A DNA stretch of 64,000 nt from Bryopsis sp. KO-2023. Its lineage: Eukaryota; Chlorophyta; Ulvophyceae; Bryopsidales; Bryopsidaceae. The notes beneath the pieces are model-generated. The model had not been told where the DNA came from, made no database searches, and saw only the letters and a program-made list of their open reading frames with translations. The stretch lies in assembly GCA_030272585.1 (NCBI GenBank), contig BSYQ01000009.1, positions 62,001 to 126,000 on the forward strand, in the 5' to 3' direction. Shown piece by piece: positions 5,247 to 59,377 of this stretch. The translations under genes and the position numbers were made by a program. Each line of letters starts with the position of its first letter. The stretch's first letter is position 1.

Positions 5247-5623
5247 AGTCATGGGCTGCACAGGACAGACCCCTGTCCTGTGCACCCTGTGCTGTCCTGT
5301 CCTGTGCAGCGGAATTGCACAGGCCAGAACAGCACAGACTGTCTGTGCTGTGCACAGGGTCAGACCTGTGCTGCACAGGTGAGCAGACCTGCACAGCACA
5401 GCACGGATCTGCACAGAATCTGCACAGAACTGCACAGAATCTGCACAGATTTGGCACAGAATCTGCACAGATTTGGCACAGAAACTGCACAGATGTTGCA
5501 CAGACCCTGTCTGTGCTGTGCTGTACAGGTCTGTGCACCTGTGCAGCACAGGTCTGACCCTGTGCACAGCACAGACAGTCTGTTCTGTCCTGTCCTGTGC
5601 ACAGGGGTCTCAGCCCATGTCTG
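5247..5623 (+). mobile_element. TGCACAG-rich MITE, 9-bp target duplication (copy 1)
   Basis: This is a 377-bp non-autonomous element. It starts AGTCATGGGCTG and ends CAGCCCATGTCTG, giving a short terminal inverted repeat around CATGGGCTG. CTGGTTGCC is duplicated at both edges (5238..5246 and 5624..5632). A 9-bp duplication points to the Mutator (MULE) superfamily. The interior is almost entirely TGCACAG/CTGTGCA repeats in both orientations, so it folds on itself and has few stops in any frame. It has no transposase. Confidence 0.85.
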
Positions 5624-5669
5624 CTGGTTGCCCTGAGGCAGCGTACAGTCAGTCAGGGTGTGCTGTCAG

Positions 5670-6010
5670 CATACTATGGATCCGATCACGATCAGATCGG
5701 TCTCCGATCAACCGGGAGACCGATCATGATCGTGATCGGCCGATCACCGATCTGATCGGTCGCCGATCAGGTCTGGCAGGGCCGATCATCGATCACGATC
5801 GGCCGATCACCGATCTGATCGGTCGCCCAACCTGATCGGCAGTTTTTGATCGGCCTGATCGTGATCGGCCGATCAAAAACTGCCGATCAGGTGCCGACAG
5901 GGTGCGACGCTTGATCGAGATCGTGATCGGGATCGGCGCGATCGACTATAATCGGCTTGCGCCGATCATGATCGGCGCAACACCGATCATGATCGGTGGG
6001 TCGTCTACGT
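5670..6010. repeat. Left subterminal GATCGG array of the hAT element
   Basis: This is a dense run of GATCGG, CGATC and CCGATCA words in both orientations, many forming short palindromes such as GGCCGATC and GATCGTGATCGG. Subterminal arrays of short repeats are the usual transposase-binding regions of hAT elements, as in Ac and Tam3. Their position just inside the terminal repeat fits that role. This is inferred from position. Confidence 0.8.
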
Positions 6011-6129
6011 CAAGAATCGATCATTGATCGCGGGTGAGATGCAGGTGAGTCACGCGGGCACATCGCATGTTCGGTTGCTGTTAATCTGGTGAGCGTTTAA
6101 CTCCACGTCTTATCAGCGCCCCGTTCGAA

Positions 6130-6440
6130 ATGGGCCGGCATGGAAAAAGAAAAGCGCTCGTCACCCCTGCGAGGTCAGGGCAACGCCCACACACGTCCCA
6201 GAGGAGACCAGTTCCGACCGGATCTGGAAGCGGGGGGTTGGAACCTCGTCGCCAGGGCAGCGTTCCATCCGTGGGGCCGCAGGGGTCGGGGCAAGCATCT
6301 GACCTGACCAACAGTGCGTTACTCCCTGATCTGTTCCGCCTTGTTGTACTCTTATGGTTTTGTGGGGGGGTGAGGTGTTCCCTTGTTGGATTGTGTGAGG
6401 TGCTTGTGCTTTCTCCAGTTGTTCTGGTTCTGCTTTTATG
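6130..6440 (+). other. Possible 5' exon or leader of the transposase gene
   Basis: An ATG-started frame of about 100 codons precedes the main transposase frame. It is basic at its start (MGRHGKRKAL) and loses protein-like character after about residue 65. A pyrimidine-rich tract ending in CAG sits at about 6450..6472, just before the transposase frame, and looks like a splice acceptor. I could not find a donor that keeps the frame, so the true start of the transposase is unresolved. Confidence 0.3.
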
Positions 6441-6471
6441 AGGTGTTTGTCCTGTCCTGCCCTGCCCTGCA

Positions 6472-9229
6472 GTGAACAGAAATGGAAAGGAAGCTGATCT
6501 GCTGGAACTGGGTGCAAGCCCTCCTGTGATTCCTGTTCGGAGAAGTAACACATGGGTTGACAAGATGTATGTCAGCAGTCCAGAAGGCAAGATCCTGGTG
6601 TATAAGGATGATCGGGGCAGAAAGGTGGTGTCGTGCAGAATCTGTCATGAACAATTGTCATGGGTGAAGGGAGGCAGGATCCCCCTTTTGAATCATGCGG
6701 CCAAACACGGTATCCGGATCAGTTCCGAAATGGAAATCGCTGTCGCGGAAGGCTTTGAGGGCTGCCATTTGAAAAGGCAAAAGGATCAGGACATGAAAAC
6801 AGGCACACAAGGGGGTCGGATCAGTTCTTTTGGGACCCAGAAAACACTCCCGTTTGTGTCTAAATGGGGACCTACTACCCGGGAGTTCCAGTCGTACCGG
6901 CACAAGGTTATGTGCTATCTGGTCAGCGTCGGGGCCCCCTTCAGGACAGTGGAAGATCAGCACTTCCGAGACATGTGCACTCAACTGAACGCATCTGCTC
7001 CGCCTCTATCAGCGAAATCCATGTCTCACCAGGTCGGATTGTCCTCCAACAGGCTTAAAAAAAAGATGAAGGATATGGATCTGAGCAGATTCCGACCATG
7101 CTTTGTTGCTGATGGTTGGTCTCAGCAGCCCAAGCATTGGTTCGCGATGGGGGCTGTCTACATACACCGGGACCCGGAACAGGATCTGTTCGAACTCAAG
7201 CGGATCAGTCTCGGGACCTGGGAAATGGAGGGTACCGCAACTGCTTTGGACATTTGCACAAAAATGAACGAGATCAGGGAGGACTTTGATCTGACCGGAT
7301 ATCAGGCCAGCATCGTTACCGATCACGAGTCCAGAATGGGGGCAGCATGTGAAATGAACTACAGTTACGATTGGCACGGGTGCGGGACACACAGAATAAA
7401 TTTGGGGGTAAAGAAGGGTCTGAAAAATGCCCCCCAAAGCGTGAACGACCTTGTGGCCAAAGTACACGATCTGTGCAGAACAGTGATGGGTGCATCCACT
7501 CATTGGGAAAAGCTGAAACAGATTCAGATCGATCGAGCCAAAAGAAAAGAAGCTGATCTGGAACGGCAACAAGCGGAGGCTGATCCCCAAGAGTTAATTT
7601 ATGTGGTCCGGTCCTCGACAGCCACGGGTGCCTCTGGGATTGGCAACGGTGGGCTTGGTGAGAGCCCCGGTCCATCTCAAGTTGATGAGGATGAACTTCT
7701 GGAGGATGCACAAGAGGAATCTAATCAAAACGACCATCAGAGCCAGGAACAGGACGACCCCACATCACAGGAAATATATTCAAGTGATGAAGACGCATGT
7801 CCCGATGATGGAGACGACGTGGAGGAGGCAGAAGACTGCCCAGGACCAGTCATGGGCTGCACAGGACAGACCCCTGTCCTGTGCACCGCACAGGACAGGG
7901 TTCTGTGCAAGTTCTGTGCACCCTGTGCTGTCCTGTCCTGTGCAGCGGAATTGCACAGGCCAGAACAGCACAAACTGTCTGTGCTGTGCACAGGGTCAGA
8001 CCTGTGCTGCACAGGTGAGCAGACCTGCACAGCACAGCACAGATCTGCACAGAATCTGCACAGAACTGCACAGAATCTGCACAGATTTGGCACAGAATCT
8101 GCACAGATTTGGCACAGAAACTGCACAGATGTTGCACAGACCCTGTCTGTGCTGTGCTGTACAGGTCTGTGCACCTGTGCAGCACAGGTCTGACCCTGTG
8201 CACAGCACAGACAGTCTGTTCTGTCCTGTCCTGTGCACAGGGGTCTCAGCCCATGTCTGCCCAGGACCTGTCCGCAGATCTGACAAGGTTCTCAGACTGA
8301 CCTTGGCGGTGGAGACTAGGTGGAACAGCATCTGGTACATGTTGCATCGATTGTTGATTTTGAAACCCGATCTGATCCAGCTCTTTCCCCTCCTTCCCCC
8401 CCAATACAATATCAACCCCCAAGAATGGAAAGTGCTGCTGGAACTGTACCTGGTTCTGAGGCCATACAAGGAAGCAACCAAGGTACTGGAGGCAGAAAAG
8501 AAGGTGACGGGGAGTGCCGTCCTGATGCTCATGGCTCGGATCAGCGCTGCGGTAGATGCCATGAACATCGAGGAACCGGATGTGATAGACTTCAGAGATG
8601 TGCTCCGCACAGTCATGGACCATGAATTTGACGATCCCGCATGGCTCCTGGCCGTCGGGTGCATGCAGCATCTGGATCCGACCAAACTATCACTCGAAGA
8701 CGCTGAGGTGAATCGGTATTTGTGGGGCACCCCAGGGCGCTTTCCTTGCTTGAGGAAGCAATTCAGCAGACCTGATCTGTGGGTTTCAGATGTGCTGCAA
8801 GAGTGCGTGACTCTGCTGAAGGAGATCCGGCTGCGATCAGATTACAGAGGTGTTGACAATCCGGGGGAAGGCAGAGAGGGAAAAAAAAAGAAAAAGGAAA
8901 ATCTCGAACGGGACTGGCTCAGTGTGTGCCCTCCTCCATCTGCTACGGGCGGTTCTAATTCTGATGAGTGGGAGCGATATTGTGGGGTCAGGAGGGTTAT
9001 TCAGAGCACTTCATCTGTTCTGGACTGGTGGAGGGTACACCAGGCGGCATACCCAACAGTTTCGATCCTGGCTGCCGAGTATCTCTGCATCCCAGCCTCC
9101 AGCGCCTCGGTTGAGCGGATGTTCAGTGTCAATGGCCACCAGCTGAACAAGCGCAGGAGGGCGATGGAGGAGAGCAAGGTCAACCAACTGACCGTGCTCC
9201 GGGACAATCTGCATCTGTTCAGGGCATGA
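6472..9229 (+). pseudogene. hAT-family transposase with BED zinc finger, split by an insertion
   Basis: The encoded enzyme would cut and join the hAT element ends. From the N-terminus there is a BED-type zinc finger (CRIC, then HAAKHG, about residues 57-80). An RNase-H-like core follows, with Asp in VADGWS (about 216) and in TDHESRM (about 284), then the hAT-typical CGTHRINL. An acidic linker comes next. The C-terminal dimerisation region follows the insertion and contains SASVERMFS with the conserved Glu, then RRRAMEE. The frame opens at a non-ATG codon after a likely acceptor, so an upstream exon is probable. A 412-bp TGCACAG element (7848..8259) and its 9-bp duplication sit in the acidic linker. 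The added 421 bp shift the frame, so the copy is inactive unless the insert is removed. The flanking parts look undamaged, implying a recent hit. Confidence 0.85.
7848..8259 (+). mobile_element. TGCACAG-rich MITE inside the transposase (copy 2)
   Basis: It has the same ends as copy 1 (AGTCATGGGCTG and CAGCCCATGTCTG). CCCAGGACC is duplicated at both edges (7839..7847 and 8260..8268). It is 412 bp, about 35 bp longer than copy 1, because of an extra CAGGACAGGGTTCTGTGC-like stretch near the left end. Being low in stops, it yields long artefactual frames on both strands, including the Cys/Thr/Gln-rich tail fused to the first half of the transposase. Confidence 0.88.
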
Positions 9230-9520
9230 CCTGAACTGCTTCTGTTTGATTGTGTGGGACAATCTGTATTCTGATTCAGAACCCTCCTGTTACGGAGGAA
9301 CTCTCCTTTTTTTGGTTTGGGGTGCCGGGTATGTTCTCTGTTTGGGGTGCTGGGTATGGATCAGACAATCTGCATCTTGACCTGGTGTGATTTGCCCCGA
9401 GTTCTGTTTGTTTTGGTATGGGTATGTAATCCAAACTCTTTTGAATGCTTGGTAAAAAGTTTCAGAGGTTTCCACAGATTCCAGCACTGATTCAGCCCAC
9501 ACAAATAACCCTCTGTTTAT

Positions 9521-9820
9521 GGTTCATGGTTCATTACGTGAATCAAAAAACAGATAAGAGATACCAGACTGGTTCATGGTTCATTACGTGAATCAAAAAA
9601 CAGATAAGAGATACCAGACTGGTTCATGGTTCATTACATGAATCAAAAAACAGATAACAGATACCAGACTGGTTCATGGTTCATTACGTGAATCAAAAAA
9701 CAGATAACAGATACCAGACTGGTTCATGGTTCATTACGTGAATCAAAAAACAGATAACAGATACCAGACTGGTTCATGGTTCATTACGTGAATCAAAAAA
9801 CAGATAACAGATAACAGATA
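9521..9820. repeat. 50-bp tandem repeat between convergent hAT genes
   Basis: Six near-identical copies of a 50-bp unit (GGTTCATGGTTCATTACGTG, then AATCAAAAAACAGATAAGAG, then ATACCAGACT) start at 9521, 9571, 9621, 9671, 9721 and 9771. They lie between the 3' ends of the two genes of the transposon. A 3'-processing or insulating role is possible but unproven. Confidence 0.9.
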
Positions 9821-10297
9821 ACCCTCTGTATATGGTGACTCAAAACAGGTTCTTTAATTTGGCTCCTCCTCCTCCACCAACCTCCCATCCGGTCCAACCC
9901 TGACCCGATACACACGTGTGCGGTCTTCAGGGATAGGTGCAAAGTCGACCGAGCCAGTATCCAGGTCCCTCATTACATTTCGGTCCTCCAAACGGGTCTG
10001 ATGGTGGAAGAGGCCTTCACGGACTCTGTGGAGAGCGTAACAGTTCTGCAGATACACGTTTTGCACGAACTGATTCAGATGGGGCATGGAGGCGAAGGTT
10101 ATCGGGAATTGGATGGTGAAGTCGGGGAAGAAGGCGTACTCCGTCTGCATGTTGGCTCTCTCTCGCTGGGCAGTTCTGCGCTGTTCCCTGCTCCGTTCAG
10201 ACATGATCCTTCGCAAGGGGGCCTGCCTGCGCCGAGGGTACCCCTCACTGTCGTTGATGCAAGGTTGTCCATCAAAATCCATTGGCCACCTGTCCAT

Positions 10298-10637
10298 CAG
10301 AGATAGGACTTTACGGTTACGGTCACCGTACCGGACCGTAACCACCGTAACCGGACCGTAACCGGAGTACAAATTTACTCTGACCGTAATTGACCGTAAA
10401 ATTCCGTAAAATTCCGTAAAATTCCGTAAAATTCCGTAAATTTCCGTAAAAATCCGTAAATGACCGTAAATTTCCGTAAATGACCGTAAATTTCCGTAAA
10501 TGACCGTAAATGACCGTAAATTAGTAAAAATTTACGGTTACGGGACCTTTTTACGGCCGTATTACGGTGACCGTAACCCGACCGTAACCGGACCGGACCG
10601 GAGGCGGACCAAAAAATCGGCCCAAGTCCTATCTCTG
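10298..10637. mobile_element. CCGTAA-rich hAT MITE (short copy)
   Basis: It has perfect 14-bp terminal inverted repeats (CAGAGATAGGACTT and AAGTCCTATCTCTG) and an 8-bp duplication CTGTCCAT on both sides (10290..10297 and 10638..10645). The CAGAG start and 8-bp duplication are hAT hallmarks. The 340-bp interior is mostly CCGTAA and AAATTCCGT repeats, with no coding capacity. It interrupts the C-terminal part of the second hAT gene. Confidence 0.92.
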
Positions 10638-10801
10638 CTGTCCATCAATGGGGGTCTGGGGTTTGCCTGCCTCTGACCACCATGACCACCCTGGCCACCC
10701 TGACCACCCTGACCACCCTGACCTGCTCTGTTCCTGTTCCTGCCGCCTCCCCCGAATTCCCATCCACCAACATTCCCCCTTCCACTAGCTCCAGCAGCTC
10801 T

Positions 10802-11000
10802 GAACATGTTTGGGGGTGGCCCTCTTCCACCAGCTTCAGCAGCTCTGAACATGTTTGGGGGTGGCCCTCTTCCACCAGCTTCAGCAGCTCTGAACAGATT
10901 GGGGGGTGGCCCTCTTCCACCAGCTTCAGCGGCTCTGAACAGATTGGGGGGTGGCCCTCTTCCACCAGCTTCAGCGGCTCTGAACAGATTGGGGGGTGGC
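10802..11000 (-). repeat. 45-bp coding minisatellite in the second hAT gene
   Basis: Four to five tandem 45-bp units (starts near 10802, 10847, 10892, 10937 and 10982) encode a 15-residue Gly/Arg/Pro repeat on the minus strand. A further related unit lies beyond the solo LTR at about 11356..11400, so the LTR landed inside the array. Confidence 0.85.
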
Positions 11001-11350
11001 TGTAGTGAATCGCCTGATTCAGAGCCTGCTGGGCCCTGAATCAGGAGATCTGACTGTAGGTTGGCGAGCTGGCAGCTCAGCAGGTGTCCCTGCTGAACTG
11101 GCAGCTCAGAACATTCTGTGATCTGACCTGATACAGTGATGGGTTCACTGTGTCAGCTCAGTAGTTGTCTGATCAGGGGATCAGGTCTTGTCAGAGGTGC
11201 TGCAGCAGGGTATTTGGGCAGCGCCTCTAGGGTATTGGTACACTTGGTTTTAACCTAGCTTTTAACCTTGTTTGGAGTGCATTGCACCTTGGTCTTCCTT
11301 TGTTTCACCTTCAGCTTGGCTGGCAGACTTGCAGAGTCGCAGCCGTTGCA
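11001..11350. mobile_element. Solo LTR
   Basis: This is a 350-bp sequence starting TGTAGTGAATC and ending GTTGCA. GTGGC is duplicated on both sides (10996..11000 and 11351..11355). TG...CA ends, a 5-bp duplication and no internal region define a solo LTR left by recombination. Its start resembles the probable LTR at 5158, so both may belong to one family. Confidence 0.8.
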
Positions 11351-11459
11351 GTGGCCCTCTTCCACCAGCTCCAGCAGGTCTGAACATGTTTGGGGGGGAG
11401 CCTCTTCCACCAGGGTGAAGCACAGGTTCAGGTTCATAAACAGACTCCTCGTCCGTCAT

Positions 11460-11842
11460 CAGACATGGGCTGAGACCCCTGTGCACAGGACAGGACAGAA
11501 CAGACTGTCTGTGCTGTGCACAGGGTCAGACCTGTGCTGCACAGGTGCACAGACCTGTACAGCACAGCACAGACAGGGTCTGTGCAACATCTGTGCAGTT
11601 TCTGTGCCAAATCTGTGCAGATTCTGTGCCAAATCTGTGCAGATTCTGTGCAGTTCTGTGCAGATTCTGTGCAGATCTGTGCTGTGCTGTGCAGGTCTGC
11701 TCACCTGTGCAGCACAGGTCTGACCCTGTGCACAGCACAAACAGTCTGTGCTGTTCTGGCCTGTGCAATTCCGCTGCACAGGACAGGACAGCACAGGGTG
11801 CACAGAACCTGCACAGAACCCTGTCCTGTGCAGCCCATGACT
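11460..11842 (-). mobile_element. TGCACAG-rich MITE (copy 3, inverted)
   Basis: This is the same family as 5247..5623 but in reverse orientation. It starts CAGACATGGGCTG and ends CAGCCCATGACT. GTCCGTCAT is duplicated at 11451..11459 and 11843..11851. It is 383 bp and inserted in the acidic region of the second hAT gene. Three copies with three different perfect 9-bp duplications settle the element's exact ends. Confidence 0.9.
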
Positions 11843-12744
11843 GTCCGTCATACTCCACGGGTTTTCCGGCAGCTGCTCAGAGGGTCCCTCAGGTTCAGGT
11901 TCAGATTCAGGTTCATCTGCGGTTGGAAGTGTAGCTTCAGGCAAAATCTCTTGTGCAGGATCAGGTGCTGGAAGACTTGCAGCTTCGATGCTCCAGTCGA
12001 ACGTTCTGCTCAGATCTAGATCAACCTCGTGCATGGTTGCAACCTCCTCTCTGAGCTGGTCCAGATGAGGCAATAGCTGGCGATCACGAAGGAGTTCTGC
12101 AAAAGACAGAATGTGAATGAGAGGGCAGAGAGAAAAACAACCTAATTTGAACCTGATGCTGGACTGCTCACCTGTAGGCACCATGTAGGGGTATTCCATG
12201 TCCCCCAGGTTGGTGCTCCCCTTCCTGGTCAGTCCTGGAGGTGTCACCTGAATGGAATCGAGTATGGGGTCGATGCGCCTTTCAGGGGGGTTGCCCGCTC
12301 GGTACGCTCGCAAGAAAAGTTCGTCTTCGCTTCCCGCAGCGCTGTCCAGGGCGGATGCAGCTTTCCAGAACAGAGCCTAGGAAGACAAGTAACAGTAACC
12401 CTGAGTCAAAACATTCGAAACAGAAACAGTGCAGCAGATAGCAGGCAGCATACACTTACATTTTCCAGACCAAAATACGTGTTATGCGACGTCAAATGCC
12501 GGAACACCACCTCGGCGGCATCCCGATCTACCACCGTCCCGGGCTGGAACAGGTCTGTTCGGTTTTGGAGCCTGTTCCGGAGCCTCACGACATACTGCCG
12601 TGCTTTGAGTTCCACGTACATCGCAATCGATCAGCACTGCAGGCGAGACAACAACAAGATACCACGATACAAAGGCGCACGGTGCGGTGAAGTCGAACAG
12701 GGAGCGAAGTCGATATATTCGGGACAGTACGGCAGAACTGACTA

Positions 12745-12932
12745 ACTTTGGATTTGATCGGAAGTGATGATCGGTGCAAAAGTCGGTTTTTGATTTCTTG
12801 GACCGATCATAATCGGAATTTGAAACCAAATCCCGATCAACCGACCATGATCGGAGCTGATCGGATCAACGGCCGATTAATCGGCGTTTCACCGATCTTG
12901 ATCGGCCGATTAGGCGTTTGCATGTCGCAACG
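12745..12932. repeat. Right subterminal GATCGG array, first part
   Basis: GATCGG, CCGATCA and ATTAATCGG words lie between the 5' end of the second hAT gene and the LTR element at 12933. The array continues at 23584 on the far side of that element. CAACG, the target duplication of the LTR element, joins the two parts. Confidence 0.75.
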
Positions 12933-12966
12933 TGATAAGGGGGTCTAGGACCCCGAGACACAAGCA

Positions 12967-13001
<35 letters not shown>

Positions 13002-13105
13002 TCACTGGGAAGATTAATTTTTACAGGAGGGCCCCCTGCCCTATAAACCCTGTCGTACATCCCATTGTACTACACAATACCCCTAAACCCGAGTTACTAC
13101 TATCA
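12933..13105 (-). repeat. 3' LTR of the chromovirus
   Basis: This 173-bp repeat runs TGATAAGG...CTATCA in window orientation and includes a CA/GA dinucleotide run. It matches 23406..23578 base for base as far as I can read. Confidence 0.92.
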
Positions 13106-13388
13106 ATTTGTCCCCCCCCCCACGAGAGGGTGTCCACACCCGTCACAACCCTGGAAAGAAAGAAAGAAAAAGGTCGAACTAGAATAAAAGAAACCCCAAA
13201 CAAACCCACAACAAAAACCCCAACTAAAGGTCAGACTAAACCCCAAACAAACCGATGAAAAATCCCAAACCAAACCCATGCTCAACCCCACAGAAAAACC
13301 CCGTTCTGTCTTGAGGCTTGGTCTCTGGCTTGGACGGTAGCTTGGTCTCCGGCTTGGTCTGCTTTTCGTTGTCACGCCAGAACCCATC

Positions 13389-15137
13389 TCAGCCGCCAGC
13401 TGGTTGTTCAGCTGGTTCATCGACTGGCTCTGCCACTAAGTCGATCGGAGGCTCGTCCTCTTCCACATCCAAAGGAGGGAAATCCTCATCCAAAGGTGGA
13501 GGAAGAGGTCCCAAAGACGAGGGCTCCGAGGATGGACTCCTGCTGGACACGGAAGGACTTTTTCCTTCGTCCTGTTCTGGATCCTGTTCTCCTTTTGTTT
13601 CTGGTTCGGGTGTTCTCTCTTTTTCCTGCTTCTCATACTCCTCCGCCCACTTTTTCACCAACGGACCCAAGCGCTTCAGGGCAAGGCCTTTCGGAAAGCC
13701 CATGTCCCTTCTCAAGCACTGATAGCACTCGGTGAGAGTCTGGGTCGTGGGTGGAGCCTGAAGGAGTGGCTGGAAGTCTGGCTCCCGCATGTCCAAATGT
13801 AGGTCCTTCAGCTGAACCTGTGGCGGGTCGATTCGCTGCTCCTGCCACACCCCGTATAAGCGCACGAGGATAATCATGAGGTTCCAGTGGGTTCGGCACA
13901 CCGTGTGGCTCGTGCATGTGGTGATCACGTAGCTATCCGCCAGCGCCGGCGGCGAATAGCACCACAAGCAGATCGGTGGCTTTTCCCCACGCCTGTCCTT
14001 GAACCTCTTGGACATGTCGGCGAGCGCCTCCTCTTCCTCTCTCTCCTTCCTTTTCTTGGGCGCCGACTTTTCGTCGGTCTTTCCACCGGTCTGTCCCCCG
14101 GTCAGATCGCGGATTCTCCTTGGTTGTGGCTCTGAGATCATATCGTCGGCGACGTCGGGAATTTCAAAGTGCCCCGGTGCACGACTTCTGATTCTCTCCA
14201 GCGTTCTGTCCACCTGCGTATAGTCATACCCGGCTAGCCGGTGGTTAACCGGAACGTTCCCTTTGCCGTAGTAGACAGGCTCCTCTCCGTCTCTGATCGC
14301 AGCAGCAGCTCCAGCACCCTGCGTGATGATGTCGTCCATCGTCGCCCGACAAAGGTTTTCCACATAGTCCCCAAGGCGTGCGGGAACGCTGTGGAGTAAC
14401 CGGCTCATCAACCCGGACTGTGCCTCAGACGAGTACACAGCCGTTTGCCAGGCCGACCTTTCGTCTGTGGACGTCAGGTGCGGCTGCTGTTTCGTCAACT
14501 GCGACTGCAGCTTTTTCTGCGTCTGGTTCGCAGTGTCGAGTTCCTTTTGAAGCTGCCTCAGCTCCTGTTCGGCTGTTCCCCTCGCTTGTTGAGCGATTTT
14601 TAGATCGTGTTCAAGTTGGCTAACTTGATTGCAGAGTCGTTGAGCTGCACCCTCAAACTTTTTCAAGTGCTTCTCTGCCTGATCCGCCCGCGCGCGTTGT
14701 GCGTCGCGTTCTGCACGGAGTTCCAACACATCGTCTTGTAACCGTTGACACCTAGCTTGGAGAGTAGCTGGGTCGGCGTCCCGGTCGAGTGTTTTTCCTG
14801 TTCTGGAACTAGGTTTTTCCGGCAGTTCTGTCGGTGGACGGATCACGATCTTTGAGGTGCCTTTCAGCAACGATGTTTCGAAGTTCCGAAGTTTCGAAAG
14901 CACCGAAGGAGCTGGGAGAGTTTTCATGAGTTTCGCCTTAGGAGGTGGTGTGATAAGTGGTTTGGGTTCCCCTCTGGGTGGGCAAGCGTCGGCGAGAGTT
15001 CCACTTTTTCCTTTTCCGCCTTTCTCGCCGCCACTGCCTTTCGTTTTTCCGCTGCCACCCAATTGTTTTCCACTCGACTCCTTTCCCTCAACCGCCTTAT
15101 CACCACTGCGCCACATGATCGGGCTGTGCTTTGGCAT
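13389..15137 (-). CDS. Third frame of the chromovirus, coiled-coil protein of unknown role
   Basis: This is a 582-residue open frame between pol and the 3' LTR, where some LTR elements carry an env or accessory frame. I see no signal peptide or membrane segment, so it is not a typical envelope. It has a basic Gly/Lys/Ser-rich start and a long heptad-like coiled coil (about residues 125-230). A Cys/His cluster follows (CLWC, then CTSH and CRTHW, about 400-425), then an acidic Pro/Glu-rich tail. Its role in the element is unknown. Candidates are a second structural protein or a captured host segment. Confidence 0.6.
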   Translation of the reverse strand: MPKHSPIMWRSGDKAVEGKESSGKQLGGSGKTKGSGGEKGGKGKSGTLADACPPRGEPKPLITPPPKAKLMKTLPAPSVLSKLRNFETSLLKGTSKIVIRPPTELPEKPSSRTGKTLDRDADPATLQARCQRLQDDVLELRAERDAQRARADQAEKHLKKFEGAAQRLCNQVSQLEHDLKIAQQARGTAEQELRQLQKELDTANQTQKKLQSQLTKQQPHLTSTDERSAWQTAVYSSEAQSGLMSRLLHSVPARLGDYVENLCRATMDDIITQGAGAAAAIRDGEEPVYYGKGNVPVNHRLAGYDYTQVDRTLERIRSRAPGHFEIPDVADDMISEPQPRRIRDLTGGQTGGKTDEKSAPKKRKEREEEEALADMSKRFKDRRGEKPPICLWCYSPPALADSYVITTCTSHTVCRTHWNLMIILVRLYGVWQEQRIDPPQVQLKDLHLDMREPDFQPLLQAPPTTQTLTECYQCLRRDMGFPKGLALKRLGPLVKKWAEEYEKQEKERTPEPETKGEQDPEQDEGKSPSVSSRSPSSEPSSLGPLPPPLDEDFPPLDVEEDEPPIDLVAEPVDEPAEQPAGG

Positions 15138-15757
15138 TCTCTTTTGTTGGCTGCGCTTTGTTCTCCGTCTAGTCTCCGACTTTTCTGTATGCGCGCCGAG
15201 AATAACCAGGACAAAATGATCGCAAGTCCGCTTTAAGATACGCTAGGCGTATTAGCTAACGTACCTCGGTAACGTGACACTCTATGGAGGTCACCGTCAC
15301 CACACGGGTTCGTGCCTATTTGATTTTACCCTAACTTGCTTATGTCAACTCAGTTCCACCTGCGGCGCAATCACGTGACCTCCAGGTCGGACATTAACCC
15401 ATCACTTGATCCAATGTCCCCATCACCTGTTGTCAGTCGCTATGAGCGTGTGAGTTGTGCGTTAGGTAAACCTCCCCGGAAAGAAAACTGACCCCTAGCC
15501 CGTCCTGCGAACCGTCCACAGTTCTGTCACGGGAAAAGATAGCAACCCGTTCGCCGGAAAAGATGGAAACTTTCCCTAGGAAAAGATGGAAACTTTCCCT
15601 AGGCTTTTCCGGGAGTTCTACTTGGTGTTCTTTTCCTAAGTCTTTTTGGTATCCCATCTGGATAGCGTTCCAAATCGACTTTCTCGGCTTAATATTTTTC
15701 CCCCAGCTGGAAGGATAGTATTAAGTCGAGCGTGAACAGAGTGGTAATGATCCCTGT

Positions 15758-18700
15758 TTAGGTTCGAGTTCTGCGTTGGGCCCTAGTCTTTTTCTTAGAC
15801 TGGGTCACTTGTTTATTCTCCGGTTTGTTGGCTAAGTACTCCTTAAGCAAGTCCTGGGCATTGGCCAGGTGGCTTTCTGGCTCCCAGGTGGATTCCATCA
15901 AATCGTAGCCTTTCCAAAGGATCAGGTACTCCTTGCGAGTAGTGCCCCGATCTCTGAGGATGCGCTCGACCTCGAATTCGATGGTTCCATCCACTAGCTC
16001 CCCCTCTGGAGCGTCTATCTCTCGCTGATCGTCATCAAGTCGAGAGTAAGCCTTCAGTTTCGACACATGGAAAGTTGGGTGGATTTTCCAGTGGTCGGGA
16101 AGGTCAAGACGGTAGGCGACAGCCCCAATTCGGCTAGCCACCCGGAAAGGTCCAACAAATCGCCGGCGGATTTTCGGTGGGATTTTCTGAAGTGAAGCAA
16201 GGGGAATATACTTGCTTTGCACCAGCACTTCATCGCCAACCTGAAAATCCACTTTCCTTCGACGTTTGTTTGCTGAGGTGCACATGCGGTTCTGTGCCTC
16301 TGCGTATTTCGCCTTCGCGTTTCGCATTTGGTCGTCCATTCGACGTACCATCTCAGCCGCCATTTCCGATTCATCGCCCGTCCGAACTCCCTTCCTGGCA
16401 ACAACTATCTGCCCCATGTTCTGGCCATACAGAAGATGGGCTGGCGCGTAGCCTGTGGAGACATTTCGTGAATTATTTGCGGCAAATTCCGCGGTCGGCA
16501 AATAATCCACCCAACGGTCTGGGTACCGTTCCACATACGGACGCAGGAAATCCTCCAGCACCCGGATGGTGACTTCCGACTGCCCATCCGTTTGAGGATG
16601 GTATGCAGTGCTCATCCGGAGCTGAGTACCTAAAAGTTTGAAAAGGGAGGTCCAGAACAAACTTGTGAACCTTGGATCCCGATCCGAAACTATGATTTTA
16701 GGCAGCCCGTAGTGTTTGTATATGTTCTCCACGAACAGCTTTGCGTATTCTGGCGCCGTGATAGTTTTGTTACAGGGTACGAACCTCGCATACTTCGTCA
16801 ATCGGTCTACAAAGACAGCGATTGCTGTGAAGCCATGGGAAGACGGTAGGTCGGTAACCAAGTCCGTCGTGATCTGTTCCCATTTCTGGCCTGGGATAGG
16901 CAACGGCTGCAAAAGACCTTTCTGTCTTTGCAAGTCCGATTTGTTTAGTTGACAAGTTGGGCACGTTTTCACGTATGCCTTTACGGCTAACCCAACGCCT
17001 TTCCACCAGTAACTGCGGGTAAGTACTTCGGTCATGCGGTCTGCTCCAACATGACCGGCACTGGGAACGTCGTGATGCTCTTCCAGAATCCGTTTCTGGA
17101 AAGAAGCAGGGACCACAAGCAAACTAGGACCTGGGTCTGTCTTGGTATAATACAAGAACCCGTTGTCCAGCTTGTATTGCGGAGAAACCCCTCGTTCCAT
17201 CCTTTCAAAGATAGGCTTGAGTTGTTCATCACTTCTCAAAGCCTCTTTCCATGCCTCCTTCTCTGCCACTTCCCAAGTGGAGAGGTTATTGAGCTGGTCT
17301 GGCGGACCAGGAAGGCTCCGGGATAACGCATCAGCCAAGACATTGGCTTTCCCCTGGATATAGACGATTTTTGGACCTATGGATTGGAAAAACCCTGAGT
17401 TTAACCACCGGGTTTGGGTCCGCGACAACGTGCTTTGGTTCATGAAGTGGGTGATCGGTTTGTGGTCCGTCAACACCTTCACACCCCCATCGCATCCCTC
17501 AAGGTAGTGTCGCCACTGGGCTAAAGCATATGCTATTGCCCCCAGCTCCCGCTCATATGCGGAGTATCGCGTTTCAGCTGGTTTTAATCGTCTGGAAAGG
17601 TATGCAATTGGTTGCAAACCTTTCTCATGATCCTGGGTAAGAACCGCTCCATATGCAGTTCCAGATGCATCCGTTATTACGGTGTACTCCTTAGCCGGAT
17701 CAGGAAGGAGTAAGATCGGTGCGCGGCTAATCCGATCCTTAAGTTCGTTGTAGGCATTGCGTTGGTTCAGCCCCCATTCCCAGACAGTATCCTTCTTGGT
17801 TAGATCTGTCAAGGGACTCGCAATCCTAGCGAACTCAGGAATGAACTTACGATAGTAAGATACCATTCCCAGGAAACTTCGCACATCAGTGACCGAAGTT
17901 AACTCCTTCCATTGTTGAATAGCCTTAACCTTATCCTGCATCGGTTGAAGGCCTTTTTCCGACAAATGATACCCCAGGTAGTCCGTCTCTGCTACCCCTA
18001 CTTCGCACTTACTGGCTTTTGCGTACAACTTATGTTTCCGCAACCGTTCAAAGACCAGTTTTAGGTGCTCGACGTGCTCTTCCACCGAGTTGGAAAAGAC
18101 CAAGATGTCGTCGATAAACACCACTACAAACTCGTCAAGGAACTCCCCCAGCAAATCCTGAACCATGGTCTGGAACTGGGCTGGGCAGTTGGTCATTCCG
18201 AACGGACACACGAGAAATTCGAAATGTCCGTATCTCGTCCGGAATGCCGTCTTGGGAGTATCCTTGGGTCGAACGGGAAACTGCCAGTAGCCTGAGCGGA
18301 GGTCGATCTTCGTATAGATCTTCGCTCTGGCGAGACGGTCCATTAACTCCTCAGGAAGAGGGAGTGGATACCTATTCTTTACCGTGAATTTGTTTATCCA
18401 ACGGTAATCCACACACATTCTCAACCCTCCGTCTTTCTTGGGAACAAAGAGTATGGGTGCGCCCCAGGGACTCTCGGAGGGTCGGATCTTCCTTTGTTCG
18501 AGGAGGTAATCCACCTGTGTCCTAACTTCGTCCAGCTCGGCTGGAGAGAGTTTGTACAAGGGACGGTGGATTGGGGTCATTTGTTCGTCCTCCAGGTCCA
18601 CCTTAAATTCGTGGCCTTTTCTGACTGGAGGAACGCCGGGTGGTAAGTCTTTCGGGAACACATCCTTGAAACTTGTGAGGACAGCCTTGATCCTTGGGTC

Positions 18701-19876
18701 GAGACCCGAATGCATTACCTTTTCCACATCCGGCTGGAGATAAGCTGGTGTGGTTCCAGTAGCGTTTAAACGCTCTTCTGGAATTCCCGGATATGGATAC
18801 TGCATGAGATGTGCCATATCTTCCGGGGTGGTTGGTCGCACAACCACAAGGTATGCCTGATCAACTTCTGGACTGTTCTTCACGAGCGAGAATAACTTCT
18901 TCGCTGAGACTGTATCAATAGCCGGTGCTAGGTGCTGTAAGTAATCTGATGGTCGTTCCTTCATAGGAACAGTTGTCCATCCAGCACCCACTGGAACTTT
19001 GAGCGTGCCTGTTGCAAAGTCCAGTTTGGGATTGGTCTGCATCAACCAAGGAAGCCCTAGTATCATGTCATATGAAAGGTTTGGGAAGACGTCTGCGGAA
19101 AGGGTTGTGGTATAAGTACCCATCCTGAGCTGCAAGTCTTCGCATCGCCGATCAAGTGAACATAGGGTTCCGTCCGCCAAAGTGACTCCCTTTTTGCACT
19201 CGGTTGTTTCGAGTTTCAGTCTCGTGACTAGTTTCTTGGTAATGTAGTTCTCCGTTGCACCACAATCAACATAGGCGGAGATCGGTACTCCTCCTAATCT
19301 GGCTCGGATCTCATATCCCATAAATTTCAAATGGTTAGGACCTCCTAGTGGTAACATACGCTCAGAAGGTGAATACTGACCTTCATCCACTTTTTGTCCT
19401 CTACCTGTTCCCTGAACAGGGGCTGCTGACTCGTCAGTTGGTGGTGAACGAGTGGCAGGCTTATTTGATTCCCTTGCGGGTTCCCTTCCTTCCGGACTTC
19501 GTTTCGTTCCTTGAGGCGGGAACGATACCGAATTCTCAGTTCCTTCAGGACTACCAAGGTCTCCATGAACAGAGTCGACAGGTTCCGAACTTGATTCTGA
19601 ACTTGTCCTAGTAAGCGTGCTGCACTTACTGGATCGCGTTTCCAACTTAGCACTCATGATCGATCCCTCTGCACCTTGGGTAGCATTCTTTTCTATTTCC
19701 CCTTGTGCTCTTTTATTCACTTCTGCATTTCGAGCTAACCTTTCTTTTCTAAGAAGTTTCTGGCGCTGCTTATATCTGTGACGGCGTGCCCTTCTGCGTT
19801 TCGCCGAACGAGTCTGGGCTCTGTTCATCCGGCTTTTTCGTTTAACCATTTCTTGAACTTTTCGCCCTCTGGACAC
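15758..19876 (-). CDS. pol polyprotein of the chromovirus
   Basis: This is a 1,372-residue frame. The N-terminal part is basic. A retropepsin-like protease with VDCGATENY follows, then reverse transcriptase with the FIDDILVFS catalytic box and RNase H. Next is an integrase with an HHCC-type zinc region and core motifs, including TDGQSEV. A C-terminal chromodomain (VERILRDRG, then LILWKGYD and STWEP) places it among the chromoviruses, whose chromodomain steers integration to marked chromatin. It overlaps the end of gag in another frame, the arrangement expected of read-through or frameshift expression in this family. Confidence 0.92.
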   Translation of the reverse strand: MSRGRKVQEMVKRKSRMNRAQTRSAKRRRARRHRYKQRQKLLRKERLARNAEVNKRAQGEIEKNATQGAEGSIMSAKLETRSSKCSTLTRTSSESSSEPVDSVHGDLGSPEGTENSVSFPPQGTKRSPEGREPARESNKPATRSPPTDESAAPVQGTGRGQKVDEGQYSPSERMLPLGGPNHLKFMGYEIRARLGGVPISAYVDCGATENYITKKLVTRLKLETTECKKGVTLADGTLCSLDRRCEDLQLRMGTYTTTLSADVFPNLSYDMILGLPWLMQTNPKLDFATGTLKVPVGAGWTTVPMKERPSDYLQHLAPAIDTVSAKKLFSLVKNSPEVDQAYLVVVRPTTPEDMAHLMQYPYPGIPEERLNATGTTPAYLQPDVEKVMHSGLDPRIKAVLTSFKDVFPKDLPPGVPPVRKGHEFKVDLEDEQMTPIHRPLYKLSPAELDEVRTQVDYLLEQRKIRPSESPWGAPILFVPKKDGGLRMCVDYRWINKFTVKNRYPLPLPEELMDRLARAKIYTKIDLRSGYWQFPVRPKDTPKTAFRTRYGHFEFLVCPFGMTNCPAQFQTMVQDLLGEFLDEFVVVFIDDILVFSNSVEEHVEHLKLVFERLRKHKLYAKASKCEVGVAETDYLGYHLSEKGLQPMQDKVKAIQQWKELTSVTDVRSFLGMVSYYRKFIPEFARIASPLTDLTKKDTVWEWGLNQRNAYNELKDRISRAPILLLPDPAKEYTVITDASGTAYGAVLTQDHEKGLQPIAYLSRRLKPAETRYSAYERELGAIAYALAQWRHYLEGCDGGVKVLTDHKPITHFMNQSTLSRTQTRWLNSGFFQSIGPKIVYIQGKANVLADALSRSLPGPPDQLNNLSTWEVAEKEAWKEALRSDEQLKPIFERMERGVSPQYKLDNGFLYYTKTDPGPSLLVVPASFQKRILEEHHDVPSAGHVGADRMTEVLTRSYWWKGVGLAVKAYVKTCPTCQLNKSDLQRQKGLLQPLPIPGQKWEQITTDLVTDLPSSHGFTAIAVFVDRLTKYARFVPCNKTITAPEYAKLFVENIYKHYGLPKIIVSDRDPRFTSLFWTSLFKLLGTQLRMSTAYHPQTDGQSEVTIRVLEDFLRPYVERYPDRWVDYLPTAEFAANNSRNVSTGYAPAHLLYGQNMGQIVVARKGVRTGDESEMAAEMVRRMDDQMRNAKAKYAEAQNRMCTSANKRRRKVDFQVGDEVLVQSKYIPLASLQKIPPKIRRRFVGPFRVASRIGAVAYRLDLPDHWKIHPTFHVSKLKAYSRLDDDQREIDAPEGELVDGTIEFEVERILRDRGTTRKEYLILWKGYDLMESTWEPESHLANAQDLLKEYLANKPENKQVTQSKKKTRAQRRTRT

Positions 19877-22722
19877 TTACTTTGAATATGTCCAGTTTTT
19901 CCACACATATAGCATTTGGGATTTACGCCTCCACCTCCACGTCCTTGATTCCTGCCACCACCTCGTCCGCGACCTCGGCCACCACCCCTTCCCCGACCTC
20001 GACCTTGGCCAATGTTTTGTGCCTGGTCTGGCTGAGGTTGCTGTTGGCCACCCATCTGGTTTGCCTTATCAGTCTGGGGTTGGTTTTGCTTTTTATTTTG
20101 GCCTCGGCCTTTACCTCCGCGCCACCGTCCGCGGCCACGAAAGTTTCCTCCTCCGGATGAGGCAATAGCATCAAGACGAGCCGCCGTCTGGATCGCCAAC
20201 TCAATGCCGTGCGGCACTTGAGCCACAGTTTGTTGTTTGATATGGAACTTTAACCCGTCCACGAAGAAGAAGTATTGTTCTTCATCTGTCATGTTGGGAA
20301 TCCTCAGCACCTGTTCTCGGAAAGCAACAATGTACTGATGCACTGACCCAGTCTGTTTCAGGTTCCGTAAGGAGCGCCTGGCTACATCAGACATTCTGGT
20401 AGGTTCAAATGCTTGGACCAGTTCCTCAACAAACTCAATCCAATTTGTGATTGGATGTTTTTTTCCTTCCCTTGTACGCAGATCCTGGACGTTTCGCCAC
20501 TGAGCAGCAGCTCCGGTCAGGTTACTGCGGAAGAGCCTGAACCATACGCTCTCATCGATGTCCAAAGTCTGGCAATAGACCGTCATTTCTAGTTGCCAAT
20601 CTCTGATCCATCGCTGACCATCACCTGAGAAGGCCTTTGGGAAAGGAATACGAACGGATGACGGAATCCGTCCGTGGCGATCTTGCGGAGCAGCAAAGCC
20701 TTGGTTAGGGTCTGGAGGACCCCCACCTCCACCTCCGCCACCTCCACCGCCACCTGGGTGGTACGGCCATCCACCACCCCCACCTCCACTTGGTCCGGAA
20801 AGGAAAGATCCCCCTCCACTTCCAGGTGGTCCTCCTCCGCCTCCGCCTCCACCCCCAGGTCCACCTCCGGGTCCCCCTCCACCACCACCAGATCGATTTC
20901 CACCCTGTGGCTGGCTTGATGGAGTTGAGGGATAAGAACCCCACCCGTAATACGGGTTACTCGCGGAAGGTGCTCCGTATTGGTTTACGGATTGTCCCAA
21001 ACTTGGTTGGGTGCCTGGTTGGTTTCCTGGTTGCATACCAGGTTGGGTGTTAAGAGCCGGGATTGGATAGAAGACAGACAGCGGAACTGTCGTCAGTGGT
21101 TGTGTTAACATGGATGTCGTTGGTGGTAACACACTCGTTACAGGGGCACTAAGTATGGGTCTGGCTGTGCCAAGTTGACCCGCTTGGCCGAATGGTGCGC
21201 CCATTGCCATAGTTTGTGGCGGCGCAAGACTCCATGCCGTCCGTGTTCTTGGGGATGTAAATAAACCCCAGGAAGATGGAGAACCTCCACCCACGGAGTC
21301 TGCGACAGTTGTCGATGGGCTGCGACCACCCAATCCTCCTAACGTGGTTAGACCAGTAAAAGTACTCAGATCCGGAACAGGTGGTACCGGAAATGGGATA
21401 CTGGTAAGAGGAGTGGATGACACAAAAGGAACGCTTGTGGCTGCAGCTGTCGTGGCCGGCAAAGTGACCGTGCCAGTTCCTGCTCCCATCATACCCACTA
21501 CAACTGGGTCCTGAGCCGGGACTCGAACTTTCTCCCGTTTTTTCCACGCACTCAGTGTTTCTTTGAACTTCGAATCAACATACTTGGAGAGATTACTTTC
21601 CAAAGTCTGCTGTTTCTCTGTCGCGTCTGATAGAAATTTCTCCATCAGTTGCATCGACCTGTGTCCTCCTGCAGTGTCATCAGAACTCACACTGCCTCGT
21701 TCCGCTCTTCTTTGTTTGCGTTGTTCTTCGGCTTGGTGTAAGTCCCGCAACACTTTTGGGCTCTGGCTTACCAAGCCTGAGAGTGTGTCTAGCTGGCCTT
21801 GGTGGTCGACTTGCTCGCACCGAGACTCATCAGTAGTCCGAGCTAGGTTATCCAGCGTTGTCTGCTGGAGGCGCATACCTTCAGCAACTTTTGTCAGAGA
21901 GGCTTGCAGAGACAGAATTTGTTTCTCCCTGAGCGCATTGGTCTGATCAACAGCTTCAGCTTGGGTACGGGCTGATTCCTGCAGTCGATCGAGTCGCTCT
22001 TGCAGAATAGCCTCGTTATCGTATTTACCCAACAGATTCCTGTCGATCCGCTCTGTGGACCTTATATTCTGTTCCAGCAATTTGTGCTGGTGGTCTAACA
22101 ATTTCTGTTGTCTTTCTATAGACTCAGTATTTTGATTGACCAGCTTCTGGGCCTCCTTCCTGACATAGAGCACGAACTGCTCATATTCCTCTTTCAGGTC
22201 GCCTTTTAAGGTCGACTCTGCACGCTGAACCTGCTCGTGAACTTGTCCTTCCAGGTTTTGTGCGACCTCTTGCACATTCGAGGAGACAGCGGCATACACA
22301 TGCTCAGCTGTGTCCCTAAGTTGTCCCTCGTCCACACCATGAACGTGCACCTCCTGCTGGTGGACGTTTATATGCTGATGTTCATGGTGAAGGATGTTGG
22401 TGACTTCTATTGTCGGGACGTCCTCCATATCCTCATCATACTCCTCGTCCCCGGACTCTTCCGACTCTTGTTCCGAGTCTAAGTCTTCGTCCGGTTCCTC
22501 AACCTGGTCGGGTACATGTCTGTCCCACTGCAAATCATGTATTTGCTGCGCTGGTGGGTGCACCACATCTGGATAAACCACGGGAATTAGTTGGTTATCC
22601 ACCACCTCTTCCTCCTCAGGAGGTGGAATAGGTGGTAGCTGTGGCGGCGTCTGGCCGGACATGTTTTTGTTTGAATTTCCTGGAATTTTGACGTAATAGG
22701 AGTGTGTCCGGAAAGTTTCCAA
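19825..22722 (-). CDS. gag protein of the chromovirus
   Basis: This is a 965-residue frame. It has an acidic start, a long Gln/Glu-rich coiled coil (about residues 140-400), a Pro/Gly-rich low-complexity middle, a retrotransposon gag domain (about 700-830), an Arg/Gly-rich segment and a single CCHC zinc knuckle (CYMCGKTGHIQSKC) near the end. It would form the particle and bind RNA. The long N-terminal extension makes it larger than most Ty3 gag proteins. Confidence 0.88.
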   Translation of the reverse strand: METFRTHSYYVKIPGNSNKNMSGQTPPQLPPIPPPEEEEVVDNQLIPVVYPDVVHPPAQQIHDLQWDRHVPDQVEEPDEDLDSEQESEESGDEEYDEDMEDVPTIEVTNILHHEHQHINVHQQEVHVHGVDEGQLRDTAEHVYAAVSSNVQEVAQNLEGQVHEQVQRAESTLKGDLKEEYEQFVLYVRKEAQKLVNQNTESIERQQKLLDHQHKLLEQNIRSTERIDRNLLGKYDNEAILQERLDRLQESARTQAEAVDQTNALREKQILSLQASLTKVAEGMRLQQTTLDNLARTTDESRCEQVDHQGQLDTLSGLVSQSPKVLRDLHQAEEQRKQRRAERGSVSSDDTAGGHRSMQLMEKFLSDATEKQQTLESNLSKYVDSKFKETLSAWKKREKVRVPAQDPVVVGMMGAGTGTVTLPATTAAATSVPFVSSTPLTSIPFPVPPVPDLSTFTGLTTLGGLGGRSPSTTVADSVGGGSPSSWGLFTSPRTRTAWSLAPPQTMAMGAPFGQAGQLGTARPILSAPVTSVLPPTTSMLTQPLTTVPLSVFYPIPALNTQPGMQPGNQPGTQPSLGQSVNQYGAPSASNPYYGWGSYPSTPSSQPQGGNRSGGGGGGPGGGPGGGGGGGGGPPGSGGGSFLSGPSGGGGGGWPYHPGGGGGGGGGGGGPPDPNQGFAAPQDRHGRIPSSVRIPFPKAFSGDGQRWIRDWQLEMTVYCQTLDIDESVWFRLFRSNLTGAAAQWRNVQDLRTREGKKHPITNWIEFVEELVQAFEPTRMSDVARRSLRNLKQTGSVHQYIVAFREQVLRIPNMTDEEQYFFFVDGLKFHIKQQTVAQVPHGIELAIQTAARLDAIASSGGGNFRGRGRWRGGKGRGQNKKQNQPQTDKANQMGGQQQPQPDQAQNIGQGRGRGRGGGRGRGRGGGRNQGRGGGGVNPKCYMCGKTGHIQSKCPEGEKFKKWLNEKAG

Positions 22723-23405
22723 ACTTTCTGGTGACTTGGATGCGAACTTGTTTCAGTTCTGGTTGCAATCCTAGTCGCTATCTTTTCTTGAACCTTACTA
22801 GGTCAGAAATAGATAGGAGTTTTACACTTGACAACGTCGGGTGTTACGTTCCCGTTCGCGTTCTGTCAGCCGACGAGGTTAGTACCTTGGCCGGTGATTC
22901 AGTCTACGACTAACTGTAGAGCCAGTCGTGACTCAGGCGGTGCGGTAACCGATTGCGCGCTGGAAAGAGTGACAATGAGTCACCTGCCAGAACGACTATT
23001 TTTCGTGTTACTGGCAGAAGCGTCAGTCGACGGAAGTTGGTCGTTCCGGACGACGTTCTTTCCTACGCCGGTTCGCACTTTCAGTTGTTCGCCTGCGCGT
23101 TTCGGGTTTACTCCGATCGTTGCTCTCCTTGCACTGTTGTAGTGCTTTCGCCTTGTTTTCCTTTAGATCTACAGATCTGTAGGTTTCCAGAAATTCGTTC
23201 ACTGGACTCCGATTCTTTTGCGACTTCGCCTGACGTTTTCGAACGACGACGCGAGCACGTCGTTCGAAGGATAGCTCTCCTCGCGACCCCTGGAACACAG
23301 AGTTCCAGATCTGTGGGATTTAGTAATCCCTAAGGTCAGATCTTTGGGGGGGGTTCGCGAGTTCTCCTGTGGGGTGCGCCTGGCCTCGCCAGCTCCGAAA
23401 CCAAA

Positions 23406-23439
23406 TGATAAGGGGGTCTAGGACCCCGAGACACAAGCA

Positions 23440-23474
<35 letters not shown>

Positions 23475-23578
23475 TCACTGGGAAGATTAATTTTTACAGG
23501 AGGGCCCCCTGCCCTATAAACCCTGTCGTACATCCCATTGTACTACACAATACCCCTAAACCCGAGTTACTACTATCA
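23406..23578 (-). repeat. 5' LTR of the chromovirus
   Basis: This is the partner of 12933..13105. It is followed at 23579..23583 by CAACG, matching 12928..12932. Confidence 0.92.
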
Positions 23579-23583
23579 CAACG

Positions 23584-23870
23584 CTTGATCGTGATCGGGA
23601 TCGTGATCGGAGCAACCGATTAGATCGACAATCGGAAGCCCGATCCCGATTACGATCAAGCTTTGATCGGCCGACCACGATCATCGATCAGGTTTTGATC
23701 GGCCGATCACGATCACGATCATCGATCATGATCGGTAAAAAAAAAAGAAAAAAAGACCGATCATTTTCAGAATCATGTGGAACGAGATCGTATCAGGTCA
23801 GATCAATGAAACGACCTGTCCTGACATCGAAAATGGACGGCCGATCATTTCCGATCACGTCCATAGTATG
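23584..23870. repeat. Right subterminal array and right end of the hAT element
   Basis: GATCGG words, an A-rich run near 23738 and the terminal CCATAGTATG. The last 200 bp match the reverse complement of 53451..53650, so the two are ends of the same family. GCTGTCAG follows at 23871, the same 8 bases as before the left end at 5670. Confidence 0.85.
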
Positions 23871-24254
23871 GCTGTCAGTGAAGTAGTACGTGGACTACTG
23901 AGCTGTCAGCTAGAATGTTCGAGAAGGTCGCTCAGCACCACAGGAATGGCCGTGGGGCTGAGCTGGGCTCTGATTGACAGGACTGCAAGATCTGATAGCT
24001 TGCAGTACTGATGCAGACTGATGTTACAGCCTATGATCAGTTGGGATCAAGGCAGATAGGGTATTCTATAAGTTCTTGGGGTTTGAACGTTCTTGTAACT
24101 TAACCTAACCTTGGTTTGGAACTTGTCTCGCCCTTGAACCTTGCTAGGTTCAAGTGTCTCTCTCATGACCGTTCAATAGAACAGGCGGTTCGGACTGGCA
24201 GACTTACAGGGTCGCAGTCTTCGGTGGACAGAAGCGGAAAAAGCGATCTGCAGG

Positions 24255-58660: not shown

Positions 58661-59377
58661 TACCTCCCCCCCTAATCAGTCTCCTCCTGGAGACTCCTTT
58701 CCTCACTTCTATATAGCCCATAGAATGATACAGAGTCCCACAACGAACCCCAATTCTTATCATTCAACTATATAAAGTGTTTCGATAACTTGGAGATGTT
58801 ATCATAAGTGTATTCGTCAGAATAAGCCCCTACTCTGATATAGGTCATCCGAGTCCTTCTCATACACGGAGTGCTTCTCGGATCTACCAAGACCATACAC
58901 TTCTCTACACTGGTGGCGAACCAATGTACATCAACTGAAGTCTCGCAACTTCATCTACTTCCATTTATATTCTCATTTTGAATGGATCCCATCTAGAGTT
59001 CAAAATAGAATATAGCGAGAAATTCAATTTAGTTCACTAGTTCATTGAAAATGAGATATGTTCTTAAACATGTCCTCACTTAACAAGAACTTGATCTCGT
59101 TCACAAGATCTGGAACTCTTTTCATATCGACACTCGATTATGAAGAAACATTACCCCACACAAGTCACGAACGAAGTCGCCTACTTCGACGTACCGGAAT
59201 AGGGGGAATCAACGTTGATTTCTTTCTCTTCTGCAGAGATAGGACTTTACGGTTACGGTCACCGTAACCGGACCGTAACCACCGTAACCGGACCGTAACC
59301 GGAGTACAATTTTCGTCAGAAAATCGTACTTTTACGGCCGTAACCGTAGCACCGTACCACTCCGTACCGCTCCGTAC

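Follow-up and report, generated by a model that had tools for sequence, protein, structure and literature searches.

A hAT transposon lineage with a conserved, linked second gene and CCGATC/GATCGG terminal arrays in the green alga Bryopsis sp. KO-2023

We describe a lineage of hAT transposons in which a second gene, here called gene 2, accompanies the transposase gene. It was recognized in a 64,000-nucleotide stretch of the ulvophyte Bryopsis sp. KO-2023 (assembly GCA_030272585.1, contig BSYQ01000009.1, positions 62,001 to 126,000 of the forward strand; hereafter the window), where one such element lies at 5670-23870 on the plus strand. The usual picture of this superfamily is of cut-and-paste transposons with a single gene, a property on which Tol2-type tools rely; a second gene kept with a hAT transposase across several subfamilies is unusual for the class. 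Judging from the copies compared here, gene 2 belongs to the element and is retained in several old subfamilies, and this persistence suggests a helper protein. We consider it probable, at roughly 60%, that this is a two-gene hAT lineage in which gene 2 encodes an accessory protein, most likely acting at the CCGATC/GATCGG arrays, although the mechanism of that action is our proposal. The original prediction, made from the letters of this stretch, had suggested an algal family of hATs that also encodes an accessory protein; the linked, conserved presence of gene 2 bears out the family, and the accessory role itself stays conditional. Its placement of the host among the charophytes was mistaken.

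Results

The two genes occur together across the 91-Mb genome. Six subfamilies were defined from transposase searches (A-F, F being known from match tables alone), and the window element is a copy of A. Among 97 transposase C-terminal matches counted in these subfamilies, 89 had a convergent gene-2 match within 2 kb (A, 43 of 44; B, 14 of 18; C, 1 of 1; D, 10 of 10; E, 20 of 23; F, 1 of 1) and 95 had one within 20 kb. The 97 were reached by setting aside 53 of 150 scored matches, seven of them short pieces taken as parts of counted copies and the rest other or weaker hATs. Searching from the other side, with 116 C-terminal residues of the subfamily A gene-2 protein, gave 111 matches ranging from 100% down to 34% identity, and a convergent transposase end lay within 2 kb of 93 of these and within 20 kb of 101. 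All of these counts are lower bounds, the best 150 of 175 and the best 150 of 185 candidates having been scored. The original prediction had named two outcomes that would speak against it, copies carrying the transposase alone as a rule and gene 2 standing alone as a host gene; the first was not seen, and no clear case of the second occurred among the 111 matches in this genome. Around the other hATs of the genome (n = 56, after 94 of 150 matches were dropped as members of A-F), no gene-2 match was found within 10 kb of 52 and one was present near four, so the second gene is not general to hATs in this genome.

Sequence divergence between the subfamilies is considerable. The C-terminal domain of the gene-2 protein (C-domain) is 34-64% identical among A-E, and in all 10 subfamily pairs the proportion of nonsynonymous differences (pN) is lower than that of synonymous differences (pS; for A-B, 0.26 versus 0.80); for the transposase, the A-B ratio is 0.245. 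Within A, the coding sequence of gene 2 outside its repeats has accumulated 4 replacement, 6 synonymous and 2 stop changes, in a sequence with some 820 replacement sites and 245 silent ones, and the transposase 16 replacement, 11 synonymous and no stop changes. Constraint on gene 2, a point on which the prediction could be checked, is indicated by the lower pN and by the direction of the few changes within A. Of the two genes, gene 2 has the higher rate of divergence (A-D identity of 38% in the C-domain versus 54% in the transposase). The two gene trees have compatible topologies, both placing D and E together and apart from A, B and C; only the transposase tree resolves the grouping of A with B, and E enters that tree as a fragment covering 22% of columns.

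As predicted, the second gene is spliced and faces the transposase within the element. In the window it runs on the minus strand in three exons: exon 1 (12460-12621), which has the start MYVELKAR and counterparts in B, D and E; exon 2 (12172-12376), which is bounded by splice sites and found across the genome; and exon 3 (9854-12096), which holds the linker and the C-domain (9857-10297), contains three inserts, and has a homologous exon in copies L030 and L037-L040. Subfamilies A, B, D and E all show this layout; in the gene models, the first codons of B lie beyond the sequence examined and exon 2 of C is interrupted. The hypothetical protein BSKO_12668 is the subfamily C gene 2, begun at a later start codon. 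In L030 the protein has 546 residues; its N-terminal part is conserved and is joined by a low-complexity linker to the C-domain, which is about 145 residues long. The linker of the window copy, in exon 3, consists of 15-residue repeats of the RGPPPNM type, and the core RG(P/S)(P/Q)P recurs eight times in A at 15-residue spacing, six times in B (spacing 21, then 13), four times in C at 19, three times in D at 16, and once in E. An RGPPP(N/G)(M/L/F)-like core was amplified with a distinct unit length in each of subfamilies A-D, the core persisting as the surrounding repeat was rebuilt.

No known family could be assigned to gene 2. The proteins of A, B, D and E gave nothing near the cut-off against Pfam, and the best value of the C-domain against PHROGs was 0.0085, obtained by one of five members. 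Word-based searches of a large protein set, capped at 450 and 7981 candidates, found no relatives outside the Bryopsis genome, the only match among the 7981 scored being P0003 of that same genome, and phage records searched with the D C-domain yielded none. Within the genome, short gene-2-like fragments with no transposase near them lie on contig C2 at 1.40, 2.56, 3.00, 4.02, 4.42 and 5.05 Mb, and a D query gave further weak or partial gene-2 matches (e.g., C1:7735213 and C2:2948435). Tandem repeats occupy the space between the convergent genes, with six 50-bp copies at 9520-9818 of the window and other units in C and D (L038, L039).

The first gene encodes the hAT transposase that had been predicted, its sole Pfam match being PF05699 (Dimer_Tnp_hAT; E=3.1e-18, 65.8 bits versus a cut-off of 21.4). 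This search returned no Mutator-like element (MULE) transposase, the mark by which a VANDAL/MULE element was to be recognized, and no zf-BED domain, though a C-x2-C-x16-H-x3-H finger is common to all six aligned transposases, as are the motifs VADGW, VTDHE, RWN and ASS..ER. The relatives of solved structure that were found are Hermes entries, two of which are labelled merely "transposase"; the alignment to Hermes is good at ASS..ER, weak at TRWN, and amounts to just 0.5 bits around the second D. We tentatively take the D-G-W motif to contain the first catalytic D of the DDE (Asp-Asp-Glu) triad. Two of the six, P0001 and P0002, match the window transposase along 98-99% of its length at 39% identity, and their contigs (2.6 and 2.9 kb) are too short to judge the presence of gene 2; viral contigs searched with the transposase gave no confirmed match. 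Exon 1 is placed at 6130-6313 (plus strand, GTGCGT donor at 6314) on the similarity between A and B, whose N-terminal frames and donors are alike, and is to that extent a putative assignment. Exon 2 (6473-9229, plus strand, stop at 9227-9229) is identified by open reading frames and the dimerization domain, and an insertion splits it.

The CCGATC/GATCGG subterminal arrays that had been noted from the letters stand well above chance. The left end CATACTATGGA and left array occupy 5670-6030, with 25 motifs in 5671-6030; 1000 first-order Markov resamples of that interval had a mean of 3.0 (maximum 10), and the composition of the element body would give 0.12. The right-hand array is cut in two by a Ty3-type retrotransposon; its inner part (12740-12932) has 8 motifs in 12740-12935, versus 0.5 (maximum 5) in such resamples, and its outer part, with the right end TCCATAGTATG (23579-23870), has 10 in 23580-23871, versus 1.3 (maximum 6). 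The motif is 19- to 44-fold enriched over element bodies at both ends of A and D, the left end of B, and the right ends of C and E, and the left array of C is visible in the motif density table. Arrays of 200-500 bp were present at every end read in A-E, CCGAC-type variants being frequent in D.

Two derivatives in the window have kept such ends and arrays without the genes, each between perfect 8-bp duplications. The first (24255-25185; 931 bp; duplication TCTGCAGG) has the same end type and arrays and is found at 42 or more places at ≥85% identity including its own, 39 of them about full length (best 40 of 312 candidates scored). The second (59378-60402; 1025 bp; duplication CTCCGTAC) has one end that resembles the left end of subfamily B, with 94% identity across 265 bp. 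The spread of gene-less derivatives that have the ends and arrays suggests that ends plus arrays are sufficient in cis. Both also enclose an extended inverted repeat (366 and 485 bp aligned, respectively), which looked tRNA-like by eye; ARAGORN (bacterial code) reported no tRNA in the window and Rfam none there. The second derivative is itself inserted in a miniature inverted-repeat transposable element (MITE) of the CAGAGATAGGACTT kind at 59234-60731, with duplication CTCTTCTG.

Among the matches listed, the full 1531-bp left part of the element was present at 22 further genome places. We fetched 20 of these subfamily A copies, every one 99% identical, and in the 13 where length could be measured it was 6044-6617 bp; a subfamily D copy is 6965 bp. 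Both exact ends are found in 12 of the 20, all with a perfect 8-bp duplication, and because L027 and L028 have the same duplication, 11 insertions look independent. No right end was found within the 10 kb examined in seven copies, and L033 has no exact left end. No shared consensus among the target-site duplications was obvious by eye. An open transposase frame together with three open gene-2 exons is retained by nine of the 20; in each of the other 11, at least one of these four reading frames is broken or partly unread. Over 6208 bases, L034 and L035 differ from L030 at one and two positions, respectively, and the family has therefore been mobile recently.

The window copy itself has ends matching as predicted, with 11-bp inverted ends (CATACTATGGA at 5670, TCCATAGTATG at 23870) flanked 18 kb apart by the identical 8-bp duplication GCTGTCAG (5662-5669 and 23871-23878). 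When all of the window was scanned for 9-bp inverted ends that begin with CA or TA, have 8-bp repeat flanks and lie at most 20 kb apart, five pairs were returned, of which this is the longest. The 11-bp ends fall within the 10-25 bp expected of hATs, and the 8-bp duplication typical of them is seen here, in all 12 copies with both exact ends, and in the subfamily D copy (CTTTTGAG). The length, which had been read as the element's own, is not: the copy spans 18.2 kb because it has received a Ty3 retrotransposon, a solo-LTR-like insert (LTR, long terminal repeat) and three MITEs, and both of its genes are broken because these later inserts interrupt the reading frames.

The retrotransposon (12933-23578, minus strand; 10.6 kb) has identical LTRs of 173 bp each (12933-13105 and 23406-23578), a 5-bp duplication, CAACG, and matches to the Pfam profiles of gag, protease, reverse transcriptase, RNase H, integrase and chromodomain; of the 40 scored places that match its 5' part, 39 lie elsewhere. 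The retrotransposon contains a 975-residue gag frame and, downstream of pol, an extra frame of 617 residues (13389-15242, minus strand) with weak coiled-coil matches alone. One MITE (7847-8259; 413 bp; duplication CCCAGGAC) lies in transposase exon 2, and another of the same kind (11460-11843; 384 bp; duplication TCCGTCAT) in gene 2 exon 3, each with its own 8-bp duplication; the former's family occupies at least 40 genome places (best 40 of 323 candidates scored). A further member lies at 5246-5623, and the three have CAG(A/T)CATGGGCTG-type ends, CTGCACAGAAT-type repeats and 8-bp duplications. Exon 3 of gene 2 also holds a MITE of another kind (10298-10637; 340 bp) with CAGAGATAGGACTT ends and the 8-bp duplication CTGTCCAT, and the solo-LTR-like insert (11001-11350), with TG...CA ends and the 5-bp duplication GTGGC. 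Elsewhere in the window are a further hAT-like end pair, CAGGCCACTTTA, with the 8-bp repeat GGAATCGT (26303-27133; 831 bp), and a C/D-box small nucleolar RNA, snoR38 (32049-32125, minus strand).

Discussion

The Bryopsis elements share with Ac, Tam3, hobo, Hermes and Tip100 the 8-bp duplication, short inverted ends, dimerization domain, subterminal repeats and possibly the BED-like finger of the hAT superfamily, but differ in their linked second gene and in arrays of 200-500 bp per end. A search of titles and the beginnings of abstracts of open-licence papers found no two-gene hAT. At 6.0-7.0 kb they also exceed the usual 2.5-5 kb, which is not a strict criterion, given together with 8-bp duplications for the superfamily in the available portion of PMC3942097. 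Extra genes are documented in MULEs, and MuDR likewise pairs a transposase (mudrA) with a second protein (mudrB) without an assigned domain role, as far as the accessible text of PMC6446971 goes; MuDR belongs to a different superfamily, however, and mudrB is likened to gene 2 by description and not by sequence. The VANC proteins of the Arabidopsis VANDAL/Hiun MULEs offer a closer resemblance, being transposon-encoded extra proteins with conserved domains, variable parts made of tandem peptide repeats, and arrayed target motifs (excerpted text of PMC5735166). In contrast to VANC systems, whose targets vary between relatives according to those excerpts, the Bryopsis arrays are terminal and their core is common to the subfamilies, and the transposase is of another superfamily. 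The likeness to VANC is one of description, and anti-silencing by gene 2 would be an analogy.

Under the reading we favor, of an accessory protein acting at the arrays, the transposase would cut and join the ends by ordinary hAT DDE chemistry, and gene 2 would have been co-inherited with it since before subfamilies A-E split. Many copies of the gene-2 protein, alone or with the transposase, would act at the element's own arrays, and there the protein may assist in end pairing, protect the element against silencing, or both. The need for gene 2, its action at the arrays and the choice between these roles are all things that we infer. A more specific version we put forward tentatively, as somewhat doubtful: a two-component hAT made up of the transposase and an orphan protein that may have a new fold. 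The RGPPP(N/G)(M/L/F)-like motif of this protein was re-amplified in four subfamilies, each with its own unit length, and the protein would act in end-pairing or anti-silencing at the long GATCGG arrays, the parallel with VANC and mudrB having arisen by convergence.

Several observations weigh against an accessory protein at the arrays. The Hermes transposase binds subterminal repeats through its own BED domains (PMC10368747, in the part available), so array binding would not necessarily fall to gene 2. Two of the 97 transposase ends, one in B and one in E, have no gene-2 match within 20 kb, and 10 of the 111 gene-2 matches have no convergent transposase end within that distance, six being fragments (46-69 of 116 residues, all on contig C2) and four longer. 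The changes in gene 2 within A point toward constraint on the sequences compared, but they are few, and dN/dS (the ratio of nonsynonymous to synonymous substitution rates) was left out for gene 2 because silent sites are saturated between subfamilies. A model of the C-domain built from two sequences had a mean predicted local distance difference test (pLDDT) score of 47, too poor for use.

The Hermes precedent, together with the finger kept in all six transposases, lends itself to a different explanation, in which the transposase alone binds the arrays and gene 2 serves the element in some other way, such as import into the nucleus, RNA handling or transposase regulation. The proline- and RG-rich linker would suit contacts with protein or RNA equally well, whereas the analogy with VANC, with its arrayed targets and variable tandem peptide repeats, weakly favors the arrays; on balance we regard a role away from them as unlikely. 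More doubtful still is that gene 2 is a passenger, captured by an ancestral element and inherited without a role in its spread. Capture of host genes is often proposed for extra open reading frames in MULEs (PMC6446971, accessible text), the role of gene 2 is itself inferred, and its divergence is the faster of the two. Yet its frames and exon layout have been kept even though C-domains are 34-64% identical, pN is below pS in 10 of 10 pairs, and gene 2 is linked in A-F with no clear host copy in this genome. That the 18-kb stretch is one element with the retrotransposon's gag-pol as its second gene can be dismissed, for although the retrotransposon sits between the matching ends, it has identical LTRs and its own CAACG duplication, 39 of the 40 scored places matching its 5' part lie elsewhere, and at 6.0-6.6 kb the 13 copies of measured length have no room for it.

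If an accessory protein does act with the transposase in this lineage, hATs too can become helper-dependent. Since some copies are very young and in part intact, and the helper and transposase sequences are aligned as five pairs, the choice between end-pairing and anti-silencing would be testable.

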